DNA of 64,000 bases from Synechococcus sp. WH 8109. Its GTDB lineage: Bacteria; Cyanobacteriota; Cyanobacteriia; PCC-6307; Cyanobiaceae. The stretch's first letter is position 1. The number at the start of each line of letters is the position of its first letter. The stretch lies in contig NZ_CP006882.1 of assembly GCF_000161795.2 (NCBI RefSeq), positions 1,240,001 through 1,304,000 of the forward strand. The letters are read 5' to 3'. Both the position numbers and the translations under genes were made by a program. Shown here piece by piece: positions 35,413 to 59,702 of this stretch. The notes beneath the pieces are model-generated. The model worked only from the letters and a program-made list of their open reading frames with translations. It was not told the origin of the DNA and ran no database searches.

Positions 35413-36260
35413 CTAAGACCAGCTACGTAAAGGTGAACGCGTCAGCCGGGTTGCGATTGGAGACTGCATCGCTGCGAATGATTCGGCATGACGCACAGCA
35501 ATATCAATCGACTGCCGTGCCCTGATTCCCTTCATGCCTTTAGCGAAGTCGGTGTAACAGTCCACCAGGATTTCCAGCGTCCCGAAGAAACCAATCAGCA
35601 GATCAGCGAAATTCCCGTAGATGACAGCTGACAAGTCGGTCCCTGAGCCCTTTGTGAGGTTTGAGGTGACGTTGTTGCTGACCTCAAAACGCCACCCTGC
35701 AATCTGGGAACGGCCAAGTTCAGTTCCATAAGGGCTGAAGAGGTACTGGCTCTGCAGGTCCTTGGCCTTTGCCAGAACCGCCTCGACCTTAGTGGTGGTG
35801 AGGAAACCGCAAGAGGCCACATCTGCGTTGTCAACGGAAACCACCTTCTTCAGATCTAACAAGTGGTCCAAGGCTGGGGCCAAACCGTTGGTGCCTACTG
35901 ATACCGAACCAATTCCTGACGTTTGAAGCATCCCCGTCGGGTGGATGCTGCTGCGACTGCCATTGATGGCAGCGGTGTCGATCGCATCGGTCAGCAGGGC
36001 AACGAAGTCAACCCGGATCAACTGCTCGGTGTCAGGCGTTGATTACAAATTCATCAGATAGCTGAACTTGCTCAATGCGCCAACGGTCTGGGGCGTCATC
36101 ATCACGGAGCTGATGGTGCAGGGCTTTCGTTGACGCTGTCGCTGTCATCAGCACCAAGCCAATAAGCGGAAGCCGTGCCGATGCGCTTCGGGATGCTCAC
36201 GTCACCAACAAAGCCGCCGAGGAACATGGCGCCAGCGGCGTTCAGCCTGGGAACCACAGA
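35413..36260 (-). pseudogene. Decayed HK97-type phage major capsid protein (remnant 1)
   Basis: Three adjacent minus-strand pieces reconstruct a capsid gene. Piece one (about 36260-36130) reads NAAGAMFLGGFVGDVSIPKR and IGTASAYWLGADDSDSVNES. A frameshift then leads to TISSVMMTPQTVGALSKFSY, a TAA where capsids usually have Gln (after LMNL), and STPDTEQLIRVDFVALLTDA. The remainder keeps GTNGLAPALDHLLDLKK, GWRFEVSNNVTSNLTKGSGT, LSAVIYGNFADLLIGFFGTL and ARQSIDIAVRHAESFAAMQ, all recognisable HK97 gp5-family segments. The gene is inactive. It is one of two copies in the window. Confidence 0.85.
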
Positions 36261-36517: not shown

Positions 36518-39500
36518 TTATGCAACCGTCCAGGCCTGATCAAACTCGAAATAGTGAAAATAATTTTGTTGCAGAAGTTCTGAAACATATGAATAAGCGT
36601 CCGTTAATCCATCAAAATTTAACGCATACAAATTGCTTGTAAGCTCTTCAAATTGATGGACGGGCAATATTGGCATGTTATCAATCTCCGAGAAATTTTC
36701 AAACTGACAAGTGTCGCTGGCGCGGCCAATCAATATCCCCGAAAACTCTTCTGGGCTAAAACTAGATACATTCTCCGCTGTAATGAATGCATTGCCATAT
36801 GTTATTTCGTCATAAATTAAATTTGCACTAGAAAGGTAATTAACAGATGAATCACTTATGGTGTTGCTAGCGGTACCTGTAAGCAAGTCTGCAATTGACT
36901 CTGCCGATAGGCTTGGGTCGTATCCACTTAATAATGCTGCTGCACCGGCAACATGAGGAGTTGCCATTGATGTCCCGCTATAAAAAGCGTAACTGTCTCC
37001 GGGTATTGATGAATAAACATCCACACCAGGTGCAGTCACATAATCGATCGTGGTGGAGCCAGCAAGATTTGAAAAATCAGCAAGATTTTCATATTGATCT
37101 ACAGCTCCGACGGCTAATCCATTGTTAATCGCATGTGCTGCAGGATACTCGGGACTGATACCACCTGAATTACCAGCTGCCATCACGACCACACTTCCTC
37201 GGTTCGTTGCATATTCAATGGCATCAGCCATTGATTGACTATACCCGCCTCCACCTAGTGACAAATTAATTACATCAGCATTATTGTCTGCTGCATAACG
37301 GATACCTGAAATAATGTCACTGGTATAACCTGTTCCATCATTTCCTAAGACTCTAATAGGCATTATTTCCGAATCAAATGCTACGCCTGTAACACCAAAG
37401 TCGTCATAAGCTCCGGCGATCGTGCCAGCAACATGTGTTCCGTGGCCATTCCCATCATCAGCAATTAAATCATTATCAACAAAATCATATCCCTGCACTA
37501 TTCTTCCCGTAAATTCACGATGATCAAGATCTACACCAGTATCTATAACCGCGACTACTGCACCAAGCCCTGTTGCACCCGCAAAGCCTTCACTCTGGCG
37601 CCAGACTTCTGGAGCATAAATATTATCAAGTGTCCAGGAATTGCCCCCCAATGCATCTGCTGCCGCGAGTGTTACATTTAAATATTGTTCAAAAGCTCTT
37701 TGAATATTTATTTGTCCATAACCATTGCTTGAGCTATATCCAGCAGGTGGCAATGGCGTTTCATTTATCGATACAATATAGTTTCCGGTACCGGTATCAG
37801 CATAGGCCCCTACTCCTAAGTAATAATCACCAGTAACTTCTGCCTGATAATTATTTATTGCGCTGTTGAGGCCATTGTAATCGTCATTTTCCTCTAGAAG
37901 ATTACCGTTTGAATCATAAAATCTTAAGTATGTATCATCAAGAGCCTGGCCTTCGACAGCAAAGCTGTATACATTACCCGCAACAAGATTAATTCTTAGC
38001 CAATCACGATCTCCGCTAACTTCAAGTGTTCCTTCCGCAGTTCCTCCAACTTCTATGTAGCCACTAGTATTCGTCGTATTGTCGTAATCGTCATTATTAT
38101 CCTGCGGTGGCTCATCTATTTGATTATTGTTGTTTGCCGATACAATATAGTTTCCGGTACCGGTATCAGCATAGGCCCCTACTCCTAAGTAATAATCACC
38201 AGTAACTTCTGCCTGATAATTATTTATTGCGCTGTTGAGGCCATTGTAATCGTCATTTTCCTCTAGAAGATTACCGGTTGAATCATAAAATCTTAAGTAT
38301 GTATCATCAAGAGCCTGGCCTTCGACAGCAAAGCTGTATACATTACCCGCAACAAGATTAATTCTTAGCCAATCACGATCTCCGCTAACTTCAAGTGTTC
38401 CTTCTGCAGTTCCTCCAACTTCTATGTAGCCACTAGTATTCGTCGTATTGTCGTAATCGTCATTATTATCCTGCGGTGGCTCCTCTATTTGATTATTGTT
38501 GTTTGCCGATACAATATAGTTTCCGATACCTGTATCAGCATAGGCCCCTACTCCTAAGTAATAATCACCAGTAACTTCTGCCTGATAATTATTTATTGCG
38601 CTGTTGAGGCCATTGTAATCGTCATTTTCCTCTAGAAGATTACCGTTTGAATCATAAAATCTTAAGTATGTATCATCAAGAGCCTGGCCTTCGACAGCAA
38701 AGCTGTATACATTACCCGCAACAAGATTAATTCTTAGCCAATCGCGATCGCCGCTAACTTCAAGTGTTCCTTCCGCAGTTCCTCCAACTTCTATGTAGCC
38801 ACTAGTATTCGTCGTATTGTCGTAATCGTCATTATTATCCTGCGGTGGCTCCTCTATTTGATTATTGTTGTTTGCCGATACAATATAGTTTCCGGTACCG
38901 GTATCAGCATAGGCCCCTACTCCTAAGTAATAATCACCAGTAACTTCTGCCTGATAATTATTTATTGCGCTATTGAAGCCATTGTAATCGTCATTTTCCT
39001 CTAGAAGATTACCGTTTGAATCATAAAATCTTAAGTATGTATCATCAAGAGCCTGGCCTTCGACAGCAAAGCTGTATACATTACCCGCAACAAGATTAAT
39101 TCTTAGCCAATCACGATCTCCGCTAACTTCAAGTGTTCCTTCCGCAGTTCCTCCAACTTCTATGTAGCCACTAGTATTCGTCGTATTGTCGAAATCGTCA
39201 TTATTATCCTGCGGTGGCTCCCCAATATGACCATCATTGTCGAGATCTAGATTGAATATACTTTCATAACCCTGTTGTCTTAAATCTTCTCCTGACTGCC
39301 ACCCGGTACCGGAGGCAATTTGTCCATTATTATCTGTCAACCATATCCGATATTGCCCCAATCTTCGTTGGCTGGTTCCTGCTCTTAGAACTGCGTAGCC
39401 GTCTTCGGATTCAGCTGCAGCAATGACATCCCAATTCCTATTTGTATTATCACTGTAAGTTCTTCCACGCCTATTTTGGATTACAATTGCCTGTCCACCG

Positions 39501-39664
39501 CTATATATTTCATAGCCATAATCCTCGCTACCATCTACAATACCATTGAAGTCTAAGTCAATATTCCTATAGGGTCCAAGCCCTCTAAACCCAAGTTGCC
39601 GATAATCTATTGAAATTCTTTGAGGGAATAAAGGCTCATAGGGACAAAAGATTCTTGGAGGCAT
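36518..39664 (-). CDS. Secreted subtilase (S8) with tryptophan-rich domain and four PPC repeats
   Basis: A 1048-residue AT-rich protein. Residues ~20-130 resemble the tryptophan-rich W_rich_C module (VIQNRRGRTYSDNTNRNWDV, YRIWLTDNNGQIASGTGW, FNLDLDNDGHIG). Residues ~143-632 are four nearly identical pre-peptidase (PPC) domains of 123 residues. The S8 catalytic domain follows: Asp ~708 in VAVIDTGVDLDHREF, His ~744 in DDGNGHGTHVAGTIAG, Ser ~899 in GTSMATPHVAGAAALL. No Sec signal peptide is obvious, so another export route is possible. Likely extracellular; substrate unknown. Confidence 0.9.
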   Translation of the reverse strand: MPPRIFCPYEPLFPQRISIDYRQLGFRGLGPYRNIDLDFNGIVDGSEDYGYEIYSGGQAIVIQNRRGRTYSDNTNRNWDVIAAAESEDGYAVLRAGTSQRRLGQYRIWLTDNNGQIASGTGWQSGEDLRQQGYESIFNLDLDNDGHIGEPPQDNNDDFDNTTNTSGYIEVGGTAEGTLEVSGDRDWLRINLVAGNVYSFAVEGQALDDTYLRFYDSNGNLLEENDDYNGFNSAINNYQAEVTGDYYLGVGAYADTGTGNYIVSANNNNQIEEPPQDNNDDYDNTTNTSGYIEVGGTAEGTLEVSGDRDWLRINLVAGNVYSFAVEGQALDDTYLRFYDSNGNLLEENDDYNGLNSAINNYQAEVTGDYYLGVGAYADTGIGNYIVSANNNNQIEEPPQDNNDDYDNTTNTSGYIEVGGTAEGTLEVSGDRDWLRINLVAGNVYSFAVEGQALDDTYLRFYDSTGNLLEENDDYNGLNSAINNYQAEVTGDYYLGVGAYADTGTGNYIVSANNNNQIDEPPQDNNDDYDNTTNTSGYIEVGGTAEGTLEVSGDRDWLRINLVAGNVYSFAVEGQALDDTYLRFYDSNGNLLEENDDYNGLNSAINNYQAEVTGDYYLGVGAYADTGTGNYIVSINETPLPPAGYSSSNGYGQINIQRAFEQYLNVTLAAADALGGNSWTLDNIYAPEVWRQSEGFAGATGLGAVVAVIDTGVDLDHREFTGRIVQGYDFVDNDLIADDGNGHGTHVAGTIAGAYDDFGVTGVAFDSEIMPIRVLGNDGTGYTSDIISGIRYAADNNADVINLSLGGGGYSQSMADAIEYATNRGSVVVMAAGNSGGISPEYPAAHAINNGLAVGAVDQYENLADFSNLAGSTTIDYVTAPGVDVYSSIPGDSYAFYSGTSMATPHVAGAAALLSGYDPSLSAESIADLLTGTASNTISDSSVNYLSSANLIYDEITYGNAFITAENVSSFSPEEFSGILIGRASDTCQFENFSEIDNMPILPVHQFEELTSNLYALNFDGLTDAYSYVSELLQQNYFHYFEFDQAWTVA
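37769..39244 (-). repeat. Four tandem 369-bp repeats encoding PPC domains
   Basis: The motif cgatacaatatagtttcc recurs at 37769, 38138, 38507 and 38876, exactly 369 bases (123 codons) apart. Copies are almost identical at DNA level, including third positions, which indicates recent duplication or gene conversion. Each encodes TSGYIEVGGTAEGTLEVSGD, RDWLRINLVAGNVYSFAVEG and YYLGVGAYADTG. This is coding repeat, not CRISPR. Confidence 0.95.
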
Positions 39665-48114: not shown

Positions 48115-49053
48115 TTAGAGGCCGAGGAACATAGCAGGGATACGGTCGAGTGCTTGGATCCCAAGCATTTGCGATATCACATTCACCAACATTCCAGCGA
48201 GGTGAGCAGCACCTACGAGAGCCAAGCCTCTCCACAGCTTTTCATAATCGGCGGGCGGCTTATTTCCAATCCATGTAGGAGAAACAGATACGAATTCAAG
48301 CGCTGGCGGCACATCAATGGCCATAGCCATACCACCGGCAAGGCTGCCACGAATCAAGCTGTCGGTCCCATTTGATCGATCGCTGCTCGCAAAATTTTTC
48401 TCAAGAATCGCAATTCGGATAAAGTTGAGCATTGGCATTCCGCTTGCCGAGGTGAACGAGCGAACGTATGGAATCCCATGATCCCCGAAAACTTCTGCAT
48501 ATTCCGCAGAATCAATGATGGTATCAATTAGTGCTTCGAAGCCTTGCGCTGATTGAATTAAAGCTGCATTTGCAATCTCTTGCTGATTAAGGGGCGGTCG
48601 ACCTAGTAAATGCTTAAAATTCAGCTCAATTCCACGATACGCAGATACTTTAAAGAAATAACGAGACTTATAGGCTTCACTTTTGGCGAGACCCCTAACG
48701 AATTCGCGAGTACAAAGACGTCCATCGGTAAATTGTGCTTCAAGAACACCGCAGCGTTCATAGTCCATCACATGTGCATTACCCAACACTTGTCTATATG
48801 CAGCCTCAATGCCCTGATGCAAAGCTTCTCTATCGGATGGAGCCAAACGATCAGTCGTCACCCGATGTGGACATTCAGAATGATCTCGAGGGCCTACAGG
48901 AATTTGCATCTGAGCGCATGATTGTCTTAAGTACTCAGGATTTGTCAATGCAGCTTGGCTCTGCCCAACGGTTACCTGCGGAGATATAAACCTTAAATCT
49001 ACCGCTTTATACTCAGCGCCGAATCTGAATTTTGGAGAGAGAGAGGCGTTCAT
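48115..49053 (-). CDS. Phycobilisome linker with C-terminal hydrophobic segment (CpcL-like candidate)
   Basis: 312 residues. Residues ~75-230 form a PBS linker domain: AYRQVLGNAHVMDYERCGVL, EAQFTDGRLCTREFVRGLAK, YRGIELNFKHLLGRPPLNQQ and TIIDSAEYAEVFGDHGIPYV. The C-terminus contains a hydrophobic stretch, GLALVGAAHLAGMLVNVISQ then MLG, resembling the membrane anchor of CpcL linkers that tether rod-type antennae to thylakoids near photosystem I. It lacks the chromophore domain of ApcE. The gene is AT-rich and isolated from any phycobilisome operon, suggesting transfer. Partner phycobiliprotein unknown. Confidence 0.8.
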   Translation of the reverse strand: MNASLSPKFRFGAEYKAVDLRFISPQVTVGQSQAALTNPEYLRQSCAQMQIPVGPRDHSECPHRVTTDRLAPSDREALHQGIEAAYRQVLGNAHVMDYERCGVLEAQFTDGRLCTREFVRGLAKSEAYKSRYFFKVSAYRGIELNFKHLLGRPPLNQQEIANAALIQSAQGFEALIDTIIDSAEYAEVFGDHGIPYVRSFTSASGMPMLNFIRIAILEKNFASSDRSNGTDSLIRGSLAGGMAMAIDVPPALEFVSVSPTWIGNKPPADYEKLWRGLALVGAAHLAGMLVNVISQMLGIQALDRIPAMFLGL

Positions 49054-49064
49054 TTAAAAGGGAG

Positions 49065-49313
49065 TCACTGAAAATGCTTGCAAAGCAAATACGAGAATAA
49101 ATCTCGCTTATGTGGTATTTGCCTTGAAGCGCTAAACCAAAATAATTGATCGATTACGATTTTTTCCTTCCGCAAAGAAAATTCAATTAAACTATGAATA
49201 GATATGTTTACGTTCCTAAAGATTAACGGAAAATCTGCAACAATTTTCTTTGTAGCGATCTTTGGATGCTCCAAGCAACTATTGGTCATCAAGCTGTTCA
49301 GCTGGGCAGTCAA
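49065..49313 (-). CDS. AT-rich hypothetical ORF
   Basis: 82 residues: MTAQLNSLMTNSCLEHPKIA, then IFRNVNISIHSLIEFSLRKE. It lies just upstream of the phycobilisome linker on the same strand with similar base composition. No family; coding status doubtful. Confidence 0.25.
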   Translation of the reverse strand: MTAQLNSLMTNSCLEHPKIATKKIVADFPLIFRNVNISIHSLIEFSLRKEKIVIDQLFWFSASRQIPHKRDLFSYLLCKHFQ

Positions 49314-53400: not shown

Positions 53401-53945
53401 CTACTGCTGTTGCTGCATCTGCTGCTGACGCTTGGTCTGTGATGCAGTGAGCTTGACGTTGGCTGCACCAAAGGCAGCATCTAGTCCAGCCTCATCAGTC
53501 CATTGGCCGTAGTGCTTCATGTGGGTTCGCACGTTATGGCCCATAGATGCGGCGAGCTGTCTGAGAGGTATGCCGGCTAAGGCTCCTCGGTAGGCGTAGC
53601 CATGCCGAAGGCTGTATGGGGAGAGCCCAGGATTGGCTTTCACCAGCGCAGCCCAATAGCGATGACAATCTAGGTATTGCCTGAAGGTGTGCCCACAGGT
53701 TTTGAAGTCTTGGGCGTTCAGGATGCCGACCGGCAGCTTGATTAGCCCGCTGCTGACTTGAGCCAGAGCCTGACCTGATGCATCTGCGAGTTCTGGAATC
53801 TCCAGTGGGTAGGCAATGCGATCGGGCTTGGGAGCCTTTGCTGTTGCTCGGTTGCGTTTGACGTTGCCGATCTTGAGCTCCCCGCCCTCCACACGCGTTG
53901 CTTTCAGCTCTGCTGGACGTAGACAAACAGACCAACAAGCGTGAC
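53401..53945 (-). pseudogene. Tyrosine-recombinase (phage integrase) catalytic domain, N-terminus missing
   Basis: The minus strand keeps the integrase catalytic boxes: box I CLRPAELKATRVEGGELKIG, box II SPYSLRHGYAYRGALAGIPL (R-H with Arg), then QLAASMGHNVRTHMKHYGQW with the nucleophile Tyr. The open frame ends with a TGA upstream (plus 53971-53973) after about 10 residues beyond box I, so the N-terminal core-binding domain is absent. Another ORF (53898-54287) overlaps its 5' end. It probably drove entry of an element and is now inactive. Confidence 0.85.
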
Positions 53946-54353: not shown

Positions 54354-57300
54354 ATGCGTCCTAATCAGCTTCAAAATAAAATAGAGACATCAGTACTTCA
54401 CTCAAGAGGATGCACCTGTAAATGTTGCAACGGTAATACTACAGTCAAGGGAGGCCAAAGCACCAATAATTTTGCAGCATCACTTGGGACACTCGATGAA
54501 TTAGCCAATTATCTTGAAAGCGGCTACTGGAATGCACAAGGTCGTAGCACCCGCAAATTCAACCTCGCATCCAAGCCAAATCTTTATTACAATACAACAG
54601 GGAATACTAAAGATTCAAATGGCGTCTCATCGGAGCGCTCAAACTTAATTGAAGAAGCATTCAAATTACTGGCATCAACTCTAGGAATTAATTTTCAAAA
54701 AACAAATGCCGCTGGGGCGGATTTTCGTTTTGGAGATAATGATAGTGGAGCATACGCGCGAACGTGGACCTCGGAAGGCGAAGTAACGTATTCAGAAATA
54801 AATATCGCATCAAGTTGGCACTCCGGGAGCACCTCCCTCGGAGACTATTATTTTCAGACAACACTTCACGAAATAGGTCATGCATTAGGCCTCGGTCATC
54901 TTGGAAATTATAATTTTTCTGCCAACTATTCATATGACGCTGATTTCATAAATGACTCATGGCAATCATCCATGATGTCGTATTTTGATCAGACAGATAA
55001 TACTTCTATAGACGCAAGTAAGGTGTATCTAAGTACTCCGATGGTGGCAGACTGGATTGCATTAGACGACCTATACGGCCAATATGGCTTCGGAATAAAC
55101 AATGCTTTCACGGAAGACACGATTTATGGATTTGATACAAATATCGGAGAAACAACAAGTCTCGTATTCAATAAACTAAAAGATTTAATTCCTACTACCG
55201 CATACACGATTGTGGATGGAGGTGGAAGTGACACTCTAGACCTAAGCGGCTTTGCTGCAACTCAATTAATTGATCTGCGCCCATCAGACAAGTACGCCAC
55301 TAATATTTATGCATCCAATATTGGCGGAAAGATTGGCAACCTAAGCTTTGCGCCAGGAACCTTCATAGAATCAGTAATTGGCGGTTCTGGGGCGGATACA
55401 TTTCGCGGGAATAATGCTAATAATAACTTTGATGGTCGAGATGGAGACGATACGGCACTATTTAATGGAGAATTAAGTGATTATAGCTTTAATTTAGACG
55501 GACAAAGTATTGTTGTTTCTGACCTTAGAGATGGCAGTCCTGACGGACAGGATACCCTCACAAATATTGAGAACATTGATTTTAATGGAACTATTTTTGG
55601 GTGGAACGATCTACTCATACGTCTAGATGTAATCGCGCCAACCATCGCCATCACTCATGGCGATGCTGATGACTCCCTGCGCGCAGGAGAAACCGCAGCC
55701 CTCACCTTCACCCTTTCAGAAGCATCCACCGATTTCGTTGAATCCGATGTCACTGTCTCTGGCGGATCGCTTTCTAACTGGACTGCTGTTTCCAGCACCG
55801 TCTATACCGCCACCTTCACCCCAACAGCCGACAGCACCACCAACGGTGTGATCTCAGTCGCGAGTTCGAAATTTTCCGATGCCGCAGGCAACACCAACAA
55901 CGACGGTTCCGATGCCAATAACTCTGTCACCTTCACCGTTGATACCGTTCGCCCAACCATCGCCATTACTGATGACGATGCTGATGACTTCCTGAGCGCA
56001 GGCGATACATCAACACTCACCTTCACCCTTTCAGAAGCATCCACCGATTTCGTTGAATCCGACGTCACGGTCTCTGGTGGATCGCTTTCCAACTGGATCG
56101 CTGCTTCCAGCACCGTCTACACCGCCACCTTCACTCCAACAGCCGACAGCAGCATAAATGGCGTGATTTCAGTGGCGAGTTCGAAATTTTCTAACTCCTC
56201 TGGCAACACCAACGACGACGGTTCTGATGCCAATAACTCCGTCATTTTCTCTATCGATACCGTCAGGCCCACTATTGCTGTCACATCCGATGTCTCGTCC
56301 CTGAAAGCAGGAGAAACCGCAGCCCTCACCTTCACCCTTTCAGAAGCATCCACCGATTTCGTTGAATCCGATGTCACTGTCTCTGGCGGATCGCTTTCTA
56401 ACTGGACTGCTGTTTCCAGCACCGTCTATACCGCCACCTTCACCCCAACAGCCGACAGCACCACCAACGGTGTGATCTCAGTCGCGAGTTCGAAATTTTC
56501 CGATGCCGCAGGGAACACCAACAATGACGGAGCTGATGCCAATAACTCCGTCATTTTCTCTGTCGATACCGTCAGGCCCACCATTGCTGTCACATCTGAT
56601 GTCTCCTCTTTAAAAGCTGGTGAAACCTCGACACTGAAATTCACCCTCTCAGAAGCATCCACCGATTTCGTTGAATCCGACGTCACCGTCTCTGGTGGAT
56701 CTCTTTCCAACTGGACCGCTGTCTCCAGCACCATCTACACCGCCACCTTCACCCCAACAGCCGACAGCACCACAAATGGTGTGATTTCAGTGGCGAGTTC
56801 GGAATTTTCCGATGCCGCAGGGAACACCAACAACGACGGAGCTGATGCCAATAACACCGTCACCCTCTCCGTCGACACCGTTAGGCCCACCATTGCCATC
56901 ACATCTGATGTCTCCTCTTTAAAAGTTGGTGAAACGTCGACATTGACATTCACCCTCTCAGAAGCCTCCACCGATTTCGTTGAATCCGACGTAAGCGTTT
57001 CTGGTGGATCTCTTTCCAATTGGACCGCTGTCTCCAGCACTGTTTACACAGCTACGTTCACGCCAACAGCAGATAGCACCACAAATGGTGTGATCTCAGT
57101 CGCAAATTCGAAATTTTCCAACTCTTCTACCAACAACAATAACGACGGAGATGATGCCAATAACACTGTCACCCTCACTGTTGATACGGTCAAACCCACC
57201 ATTGGTATCAGCGCTCAAATCGGCAGCGACATCGATGGAGAAGCTGCAGGTGACTACAGCGGCTTCTCCGTCTCACTTTCAAGCGACGGCAGCGTCGTCG

Positions 57301-59702
57301 CCATTGGCGCATACGGCAACGATGGCAATGGCAACGATTCAGGCCATGTGCGCCTCTACGAATGGAATGGCAGCGCCTGGGTGCAACGCGGCAGCGACAT
57401 CGATGGAGAAGCTGCAGGTGACACGAGCGGCGTTTCGGTCTCACTTTCAAGCGACGGCAGCATCGTCGCCATTGGCGCTGATTTCAACGATGGCAATGGC
57501 AACAATTCAGGCCATGTGCGCCTCTACGAATGGAATGGCAGCGCCTGGGTGCAACGCGGCAGCGACATCGATGGAGAAGCTGCAGGTGACATGAGCGGCT
57601 ATGCGGTCTCGCTTTCAAGCGACGGCAGCGTCGTCGCCATTGGCGCATACGGCAACGATGGCAATGGCAGCAATTCAGGCCATGTGCGCCTCTACGAATG
57701 GAATGGCAGTGCCTGGGTGCAACGCGGCAGCGACATCGATGGAGAAGCTACAGGTGACGACAGCGGCTTCTCCGTCTCACTTTCAAGCGACGGCAGCGTC
57801 GTTGCCATTGGCGCATACGCCAACGATGGCTATGGCAGCAATTCAGGCCATGTGCGCCTCTACGAATGGAATGGCAGTGCCTGGGTGCAACGCGGCAGCG
57901 ACATCGATGGAGAAGCTGCAGGTGACATGAGCGGCACTTCGGTCTCACTTTCAAGCGACGGCAGCATCGTCGCCATTGGCGCATACGGCAACAATTCAGG
58001 CCATGTGCGCCTCTACGAATGGAATGGCAGCGCCTGGGTGCAACGCGGCAGCGATATCGATGGAGAAGCTGCAGGTGACATGAGCGGCTATGCGGTCTCG
58101 CTTTCAAGCGACGGCAGCGTCGTCGCCATTGGCGCATACGGCAACGATGGCAATGGCAACGATTCAGGCCATGTGCGCCTCTACGAATGGAATGGCAGCG
58201 CCTGGGTGCAACGCGGCAGCGACATCGATGGAGAAGCTGCAGGTGACACGAGCGGCGTTTCGGTCTCACTTTCAAGCGACGGCAGCATCGTCGCCATTGG
58301 CGCTGATTTCAACGATGGCAATGGCAACAATTCAGGCCATGTACGGATTTTTGATCTATCAATTCCCACCATTGCCATCAGCTCTGATGTCTCCTCTTTA
58401 AAAGCTGGTGAAACCTCGACACTGACATTCACCCTCTCAGAAGCATCCACCGATTTCATCGAATCCGATGTTGTCGTTTCTGGTGGATCCCTCTCCAACT
58501 GGACCGCTGCTTCCAGCACCGTCTACACCGCCACCTTCACACCAACGGACAACAGCACTACCGATGGTGTGGTCTCCGTTGCCAGTTCAAAGTTCTCGGA
58601 TTCAGCAGGCAACACCAACTACGACGGAGTTGATGCCAATAACACCGTCACCCTCTCCGTCGACACCGTTAGGCCCACCATTGCCATCACATCTGATGTC
58701 TCCTCTTTAAAAGCTGGTGAAACGTCGGCACTGACATTCACCCTCTCAGAAGCCTCCACTAACTTCATCGAATCCGATGTCACCCTCTCCGGTGGATCCC
58801 TCTCCAACTGGACCGCTGTCTCCAGCACTGTTTACACAGCTACGTTCACACCAACAGCAGATAGCACCACAAATGGTGTGATCTCAGTCGCAAGTTCGAA
58901 ATTTTCCAACTCTTCTACCAACAACAATAACGACGGAGATGATGCCAATAACACTGTCACCCTCACTGTTGATACGGTCAGGCCAAGTATTTTAATTTCG
59001 GCAGCGACGAGTTCGGTGGAAAGAGGCGGTACTACCACCATTACCTTTACGTTGTCGGAGAAATCATTGAACTTTGGCCTAGAAGACGTAGACGTTAGCA
59101 ATGGAAAGCTTGTCAGCTGGAGCGAGATTTCCAGTAATAAATATACGGCAGTTTTTGAGCAGTCTGATATTCTTGATGCGGAAATTGTTGTGAGTGCTAA
59201 TTCGTTTACTGATATAGCTCTTAATCCTAATGTCAATATCGAGCGTCAAGGAATACTTGCCTCAATACCTTATGTATATAGGCTAAGGAATGACATTTCT
59301 GGAAAATATCTGTTTTCATCGAATCAAGTAGAAATTGATATAATTACAGGAATGGACTGGACAAACGAGGGCATAGCCTATAAATCTCCACCACAATCCC
59401 TAACAAAAACATCATCCCTGCACCGCTACAGCATGAATGGCGAAGGTCATTTTTATACAGCAAATGAATACGAGAAAGGGATTATTGATTCGACTATGAG
59501 CTGGCAATATGAAGGAGTAGCTTTTACTGTTTATAGCCACGAGCAAGTGCTACCCGAGGTGAATACAGTAGCTGTAAAGCGTTACCTAAACACCGAATCG
59601 AATATCCATTTGTATTCAACCAGCAGCTATGAACAAGGTATTCTGAATGCTTCACCTGAATGGGTTTATGAGGGAATTGCTTGGTACGGCGAGACTGTCT
59701 GA
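54354..59702 (+). CDS. Giant M10 serralysin-like metalloprotease with Ig-like, FG-GAP-like and DUF5648-like repeats
   Basis: 1782 residues, AT-rich, probably secreted. Residues 1-~260: protease domain with the zinc signature TLHEIGHALGLGH (172-182) and Met-turn SSMMSYFD. About 343-371: RTX-like GGSGADTFRGN, NFDGRDGDDTALF. About 424-955: five ~103-residue Ig-like (Big_12-type) units (TLTFTLSEASTDFVESDVTV). 956-1338: seven 52-56-residue FG-GAP-like repeats. 1338-1632: three further Ig-like units. 1640-1782: DUF5648-type repeats (GEGHFYTANEYEKGI, NIHLYSTSSYEQGI). No Sec signal; type I secretion is plausible. Confidence 0.9.
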   Translation: MRPNQLQNKIETSVLHSRGCTCKCCNGNTTVKGGQSTNNFAASLGTLDELANYLESGYWNAQGRSTRKFNLASKPNLYYNTTGNTKDSNGVSSERSNLIEEAFKLLASTLGINFQKTNAAGADFRFGDNDSGAYARTWTSEGEVTYSEINIASSWHSGSTSLGDYYFQTTLHEIGHALGLGHLGNYNFSANYSYDADFINDSWQSSMMSYFDQTDNTSIDASKVYLSTPMVADWIALDDLYGQYGFGINNAFTEDTIYGFDTNIGETTSLVFNKLKDLIPTTAYTIVDGGGSDTLDLSGFAATQLIDLRPSDKYATNIYASNIGGKIGNLSFAPGTFIESVIGGSGADTFRGNNANNNFDGRDGDDTALFNGELSDYSFNLDGQSIVVSDLRDGSPDGQDTLTNIENIDFNGTIFGWNDLLIRLDVIAPTIAITHGDADDSLRAGETAALTFTLSEASTDFVESDVTVSGGSLSNWTAVSSTVYTATFTPTADSTTNGVISVASSKFSDAAGNTNNDGSDANNSVTFTVDTVRPTIAITDDDADDFLSAGDTSTLTFTLSEASTDFVESDVTVSGGSLSNWIAASSTVYTATFTPTADSSINGVISVASSKFSNSSGNTNDDGSDANNSVIFSIDTVRPTIAVTSDVSSLKAGETAALTFTLSEASTDFVESDVTVSGGSLSNWTAVSSTVYTATFTPTADSTTNGVISVASSKFSDAAGNTNNDGADANNSVIFSVDTVRPTIAVTSDVSSLKAGETSTLKFTLSEASTDFVESDVTVSGGSLSNWTAVSSTIYTATFTPTADSTTNGVISVASSEFSDAAGNTNNDGADANNTVTLSVDTVRPTIAITSDVSSLKVGETSTLTFTLSEASTDFVESDVSVSGGSLSNWTAVSSTVYTATFTPTADSTTNGVISVANSKFSNSSTNNNNDGDDANNTVTLTVDTVKPTIGISAQIGSDIDGEAAGDYSGFSVSLSSDGSVVAIGAYGNDGNGNDSGHVRLYEWNGSAWVQRGSDIDGEAAGDTSGVSVSLSSDGSIVAIGADFNDGNGNNSGHVRLYEWNGSAWVQRGSDIDGEAAGDMSGYAVSLSSDGSVVAIGAYGNDGNGSNSGHVRLYEWNGSAWVQRGSDIDGEATGDDSGFSVSLSSDGSVVAIGAYANDGYGSNSGHVRLYEWNGSAWVQRGSDIDGEAAGDMSGTSVSLSSDGSIVAIGAYGNNSGHVRLYEWNGSAWVQRGSDIDGEAAGDMSGYAVSLSSDGSVVAIGAYGNDGNGNDSGHVRLYEWNGSAWVQRGSDIDGEAAGDTSGVSVSLSSDGSIVAIGADFNDGNGNNSGHVRIFDLSIPTIAISSDVSSLKAGETSTLTFTLSEASTDFIESDVVVSGGSLSNWTAASSTVYTATFTPTDNSTTDGVVSVASSKFSDSAGNTNYDGVDANNTVTLSVDTVRPTIAITSDVSSLKAGETSALTFTLSEASTNFIESDVTLSGGSLSNWTAVSSTVYTATFTPTADSTTNGVISVASSKFSNSSTNNNNDGDDANNTVTLTVDTVRPSILISAATSSVERGGTTTITFTLSEKSLNFGLEDVDVSNGKLVSWSEISSNKYTAVFEQSDILDAEIVVSANSFTDIALNPNVNIERQGILASIPYVYRLRNDISGKYLFSSNQVEIDIITGMDWTNEGIAYKSPPQSLTKTSSLHRYSMNGEGHFYTANEYEKGIIDSTMSWQYEGVAFTVYSHEQVLPEVNTVAVKRYLNTESNIHLYSTSSYEQGILNASPEWVYEGIAWYGETV
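55627..57200 (+). repeat. Tandem Ig-like domain repeats
   Basis: Five ~309-bp units inside the metalloprotease gene encoding SLSNWTAVSSTVYTATFTPT, then ADSTTNGVISVASSKFSDAA. Neighbouring units are nearly identical in long stretches, which suggests recent expansion. Two more units (58361-58975) and one diverged unit (to about 59240) lie after the FG-GAP block. Confidence 0.9.
57222..58368 (+). repeat. Seven tandem 168-bp FG-GAP-like repeats
   Basis: Units begin at 57222, 57390, 57558, 57726, 57894, 58050 and 58218. Each encodes GSDIDGEAAGDYSGFSVSLS, SDGSVVAIGAYGNDGNGNDS and GHVRLYEWNGSAWVQR. Unit 5 lacks four codons. Units 6-7 copy the 57390-type unit almost exactly, showing block duplication. 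This is beta-propeller-type protein repeat, not CRISPR. Confidence 0.9.

Follow-up and report, generated by a model that had tools for sequence, protein, structure and literature searches.

Does the linker gene at 48115-49053 of this DNA from Synechococcus sp. WH 8109 (the window, the whole stretch of 64,000 nucleotides that was analysed) encode a protein that could hold an antenna rod directly on the thylakoid membrane, and how did it come to lie in an AT-rich island? A preliminary description made from the letters alone had proposed a phycobilisome (PBS) linker with a CpcL-like membrane anchor, acquired by transfer. The underlying observation is confirmed, because the ORF is intact, matches PF00427, ends in a hydrophobic tail, and lies in an AT-rich, phage-marked island with no further PF00427 gene within 400 kb. 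The reading given to that observation stands in part, and the locus resolves into the following features:

49054..49173, minus strand: 120 bp upstream of mpeG, alike by eye in G021, G299, G004 and G008 despite different neighbouring genes
48115..49053, minus strand: mpeG ORF; its 312-aa product is a phycobilisome linker of PEII type with a predicted C-terminal anchor (ORF, Pfam, orthologs, tree)
48871..48918, minus strand: Cys46 and Cys61 region, residues 46-61, equivalent to the phycourobilin (PUB)-binding cysteine region of PEII linkers (conservation; role according to passages of PMC2246261)
48460..48831, minus strand: PF00427 linker domain, residues 75-198 (Pfam; AF2 pLDDT ~75-93 over most of it; tree)
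48274..48459, minus strand: spacer, residues 199-260, predicted to be disordered (AF2 pLDDT < 50 over most of it)
48118..48273, minus strand: 52-aa anchor module, residues 261-312 (homology to a free 59-aa ORF and to CpcGII C-termini)
48163..48252, minus strand: long helix predicted at residues 268-297, probably membrane-spanning (AF2; hydropathy)
48118..48162, minus strand: conserved post-helix tail, residues 298-312, GIQALDRIPAMFLGL

The gene, its island and its spread

The ORF starts with ATG and contains one domain only (PF00427, E=7.6e-42); a Pfam search found no CpcD domain in it. Its GC content is 0.473. Over the opening 34 kb of the window GC is about 0.60, and from about 36 kb onward it drops to 0.41-0.55. 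The phage remnants of this AT-rich island are:

35413..36021, minus strand: phage capsid fragment (PF05065, E=4.7e-21)
53401..53892, minus strand: weak C-terminal remnant of an integrase (PF00589, below the Pfam cut-off)

The search for other PF00427 genes covered the whole genome, and mpeG sits outside both the rod and core regions of the phycobilisome genes. The island also carries a 1048-aa subtilase (PF00082) with PPC domains (36518-39664, minus strand), and a 1782-aa surface-type protein with Big_12 repeats, FG-GAP and a weak M10 peptidase match is encoded at 54354-59702 (plus strand).

Judged by sequence, the gene is mpeG, already named by Six et al. (2007), because its ortholog stands in the named RCC307 record: the RCC307 gene (record CT978603) encodes a full-length ortholog that is 58% identical over residues 1-312 and falls in the same clade of the tree. 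In the passages of that paper found by term matching (PMC2246261), MpeG is described for RS9916 and RCC307 as an additional linker of PEII type, with a single domain related to the N-terminus of MpeD and a gene outside the phycobilisome regions; no protein-level difference sets it apart from the WH 8109 protein. The gene had been called an orphan, which holds for its location, but it is not an unknown one. Full-length orthologs, 55-84% identical, are found in 8 of the 33 sampled same-genus genomes besides the window's own, and MpeG orthologs also occur in two other genera, to one of which RCC307 belongs. One of these 8, the G013 copy (L017), has an in-frame stop; a further copy, in G016 (L116:2036-2317), is fragmentary and likewise interrupted by in-frame stops. 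Such interruptions suggest that some lineages have lost the gene or that their assemblies contain errors.

The insertion site of mpeG differs by lineage: its neighbours are surE/pheS, recB/recC, or a ScpB-like gene on one side and a YggT-like gene on the other, and in further cases it lies in an AT-rich island (recC was named by Pfam; surE, pheS, ScpB, YggT and recB by eye from sequence). Nor does the divergence of MpeG keep pace with that of other rod genes: it exceeds theirs when the window's genome (G000) is compared with G008 and falls short of theirs in the comparison with G299. Differing sites, patchy presence and discordant divergence together suggest lateral transfer of mpeG within marine Synechococcus. 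The earlier idea of an antenna extended by transfer is thus plausible, but a topology test did not reject the four-genome clade (p-AU 0.20 for protein, 0.43 for DNA), so that vertical grouping stands, and no phage-borne copy was found in viral contigs or phage records.

A linker domain of the PEII type

In a tree of 81 PF00427 domains, MpeG forms one clade with modest support (93/48), beside the N-terminal half of MpeD and MpeC/E, whereas CpcGI and CpcGII form their own branch (100/99) with MpeG outside it. On this comparison of sequences the domain is a member of the PEII linkers, and a CpcL ortholog as judged by the linker domain is ruled out. Its nearest paralog is the N-terminal half of MpeD (~50-53%), which shares the two cysteines of the PUB region; MpeD, however, has another linker domain after this half, ends in a CpcD-like part and lacks the anchor.

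Both Cys46 and Cys61 are present in 11 of 12 MpeG proteins, as well as in the MpeD and MpeC of the window's own genome. According to passages of PMC2246261, the phycourobilin of PEII linkers is bound in this cysteine region. The exception is the MpeG of G023 (L049:9007-9939), which has neither cysteine while the MpeD of G023 retains both, and which thus offers a natural test for linker chromophorylation.

The preliminary description had named two things together as grounds against a CpcL-like protein, namely a tree position among soluble rod linkers and the lack of a predicted membrane helix. The tree does place the domain among such linkers, beside MpeD-N and MpeC/E, but a helix is predicted. 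The likeness to CpcL accordingly survives for the predicted C-terminal anchor, which shares homology with the end of the CpcGII encoded in this genome, and not for the linker domain.

A predicted C-terminal anchor module and its free form

The segment GLALVGAAHLAGMLVNVIS (residues 276-294), singled out earlier as hydrophobic, is indeed the top 19-residue window of MpeG, with a Kyte-Doolittle (KD) value of 1.72 that is barely above the usual threshold of 1.6. KD ranges from 1.33 to 1.75 in MpeG (mean 1.60), from 1.55 to 2.18 in CpcGII and from 2.08 to 2.33 in MpeF, against at most 1.36 in the 44 non-anchored linkers compared. Mean hydropathy is highest in CpcGII, MpeF and MpeG, which appear to be the only anchored linkers in this comparison. 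As the lowest MpeG value falls within the non-anchored range, hydropathy alone is indecisive; the hydrophobicity of MpeG is borderline by scale, and the putative anchor is argued for by homology and conservation.

Mean pairwise identity within MpeG is highest in the tail (0.81), followed by the linker domain (0.65) and the spacer (0.60), and dN/dS of 0.06-0.21 indicates purifying selection on mpeG. AF2 predicts, after the disordered spacer, a long helix at residues 268-297 (pLDDT about 50-66) and a short helix at 300-309, with moderate to low confidence; H284, N291 and Q295 in the helix are invariant. The prediction is therefore of a single C-terminal transmembrane helix after a PF00427 domain, as in CpcL. 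A profile built from CpcGII tails alone retrieves all MpeG proteins (E 2.8e-6 to 0.013), the free peptides described below (3.9e-11 to 0.02) and MpeF (7e-4 to 0.11) from 20,038 ORFs plus reversed decoys, where a single decoy scored under E=1 (E 0.65). Tail conservation and these profile tests rule out a chance hydrophobic stretch.

The anchor module is common over its whole length to a free 59-aa ORF and over its first ~38 positions, gapless, to the C-termini of marine Synechococcus CpcGII, whose linker domain, in contrast, belongs to the CpcG rod-core family and whose gene is in the PBS rod region. The MpeG tail has no match in Pfam, NCBIfam or PDB, and the anchor sequence was not detected in the CpcL chains of PDB or in the sampled non-Cyanobiaceae genomes, so that the tie to true CpcL runs only via position and CpcGII. 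At position 24 of the anchor alignment (A4), in mid-helix, MpeG and the free peptide have His and CpcGII and MpeF have Glu, often with Arg three residues after it in the latter two; this position is possibly a pigment ligand or part of an intramembrane pair.

The free 59-aa ORF is homologous to all 52 positions of the MpeG tail and occurs in most same-genus genomes, including the window's own (G000:C1:841197-841373, L100:7198-7374, minus strand). It matches no Pfam or NCBIfam family and, where dN/dS could be computed (0.04-0.16), is under purifying selection. The genes around it differ between lineages; in G020 and G023 it lies within the phycobilisome rod region near cpcGII. For PE-containing Synechococcus, passages of PMC2246261 locate Unk6 upstream of cpeS, within the rod region. 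The free peptide is not Unk6, since its gene in WH 8109, at 841 kb, is outside that region.

In distant lineages a Nif11-type gene adjoins the free peptide (L101:10589-10915, L104:7219-7545, with a Pfam match in L104) and resembles Unk10 of CA4 islands. Weaker relatives are small ORFs in two same-family genomes of ~1.3-1.4 Mb (L109:6781-7005, L110:7008-7262), which align with positions 13-52 of the tail (E ~1e-7); PF00427 has a single match in one of these genomes, and none was found in the other. A second orphan linker family, in G005 (CC9902-like), is presumably the MpeF of Six et al. (2007). MpeF, a PEII-type orphan linker that passages of PMC2246261 record as undetected in phycobilisome preparations, resembles MpeG in its C-terminal hydrophobic helix after a WxGGxPP motif; it differs in its length of 298 aa, its separate clade and the lack of the LDRIPAMFLGL extension.

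The term-matched passages of PMC2246261 do not mention an anchor on MpeG; "transmembrane" appears there once, for Unk3, and "hydrophobic" does not appear. Nor does an anchor figure in the passages found in other literature naming MpeF or MpeG, a body of text that leaves most subscription papers and preprints outside. As no passage found mentions an anchor, a PEII linker with a membrane anchor, the module it shares with other linkers and the free form of that module appear to be undescribed within the literature covered, the mpeG gene itself being known.

A proposed rod-membrane linker for PEII

Beyond the domain identity, cysteine conservation, anchor homology and purifying selection demonstrated for MpeG, its most likely role, and one that we consider probable, is that of a PEII rod-membrane linker that is CpcL-like in function, in which a PEII linker has been joined to the shared anchor. 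The PF00427 domain would occupy the cavity of a phycoerythrin-II hexamer, Cys46/Cys61 would probably carry one phycourobilin, and a flexible spacer of about 65 residues would lead to a single CpcGII-type C-terminal transmembrane helix. MpeG would thereby fix a PEII hexamer or short PEII rod straight onto the thylakoid membrane, without an allophycocyanin core. The C-terminus of a PBS linker faces the core/membrane (proximal) end of the rod, which is why a direct membrane hold by MpeG is proposed. CpcL (CpcG2) of Synechocystis and Anabaena has the same arrangement of PF00427 domain, spacer and single C-terminal transmembrane helix without CpcD, as well as a similar proposed role, although the domain of MpeG is PEII-type, not CpcG/PC-type, and the anchor sequences are not detectably similar.

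Passages of Six et al. (2007, PMC2246261) record that CpcGII, MpeF and MpeG were missed by mass spectrometry in most of the phycobilisome preparations. Anchoring would explain this absence, because partitioning takes CpcL into the Triton layer (PMC12461855), and the anchor is in this respect a testable reason for the absence of MpeF and MpeG. The same passages report CpcGII once, in WH8102 phycobilisomes, which counts against a strict membrane-only reading. Borderline KD, moderate AF2 helix confidence and the cysteine-less G023 member also speak against a rod-membrane linker. Photosystem I as the partner, suggested by analogy only, is the weakest step. PEII emission overlaps chlorophyll poorly, which likewise counts against the proposed role. 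Direct phycobilisome-to-PSI antennae are known for CpcL-based phycocyanin rods. If MpeG acts as proposed, the blue-green light that phycourobilin absorbs could bypass the core on its way to membrane complexes in a very abundant marine phototroph, and an undescribed small membrane peptide would gain a link to the antenna.

It is somewhat unlikely, but deserves weight, that the anchor has a different membrane target, such as PSII, NDH-1 or one particular small membrane protein, and that the free 59-aa peptide competes or cooperates with it at the same site. The conserved free peptide has the full 52-residue module, and the invariant H284, N291 and Q295 with the post-helix tail resemble a binding surface more than a generic anchor; against this, the neighbours of the free peptide vary by lineage. 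A tether at the rod tips, in which an ordinary hemidiscoidal phycobilisome would have MpeG in its distal PEII hexamer and the anchor would fasten the tips to the membrane, is unlikely: the long disordered spacer could permit it and the lack of a detected CpcD domain agrees with it, but a linker C-terminus faces the proximal end. According to passages of PMC2246261, normal rods have PEII at their distal end, as such a tether would need, yet intact phycobilisomes showed neither MpeF nor MpeG. Similarly improbable is a soluble, amphipathic helix packed in or on the phycobiliprotein ring, which would suit the borderline hydropathy and the conserved polar residues of the helix but not the fact that its homologues include a stand-alone peptide and the tails of CpcGII and MpeF, which are more hydrophobic (KD up to 2.33). 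That mpeG is a decaying transferred gene without a current role in this strain is very improbable, since the phage-scarred AT-rich island, patchy presence and interrupted copies in the related G013 and G016 are set against an intact ORF and dN/dS of 0.11-0.21 relative to the nearest ortholog.

The proposed rod-membrane role of MpeG can be widened, tentatively and at somewhat less than an even chance, to a transferable anchor module that exists as the free 59-aa peptide and has been joined to CpcG, MpeF and MpeG linkers, yielding core-independent PEII rods that feed membrane complexes, with chromatic-acclimating lineages mostly carrying one PEII version. A link with chromatic acclimation is suggestive only: the tally for FciA gives 7/1/4/7 in 19 near-complete genomes of the genus (Fisher p=0.059, counted by hand and without correction for phylogeny). 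The CA4-B arrangement is present in the window's genome.
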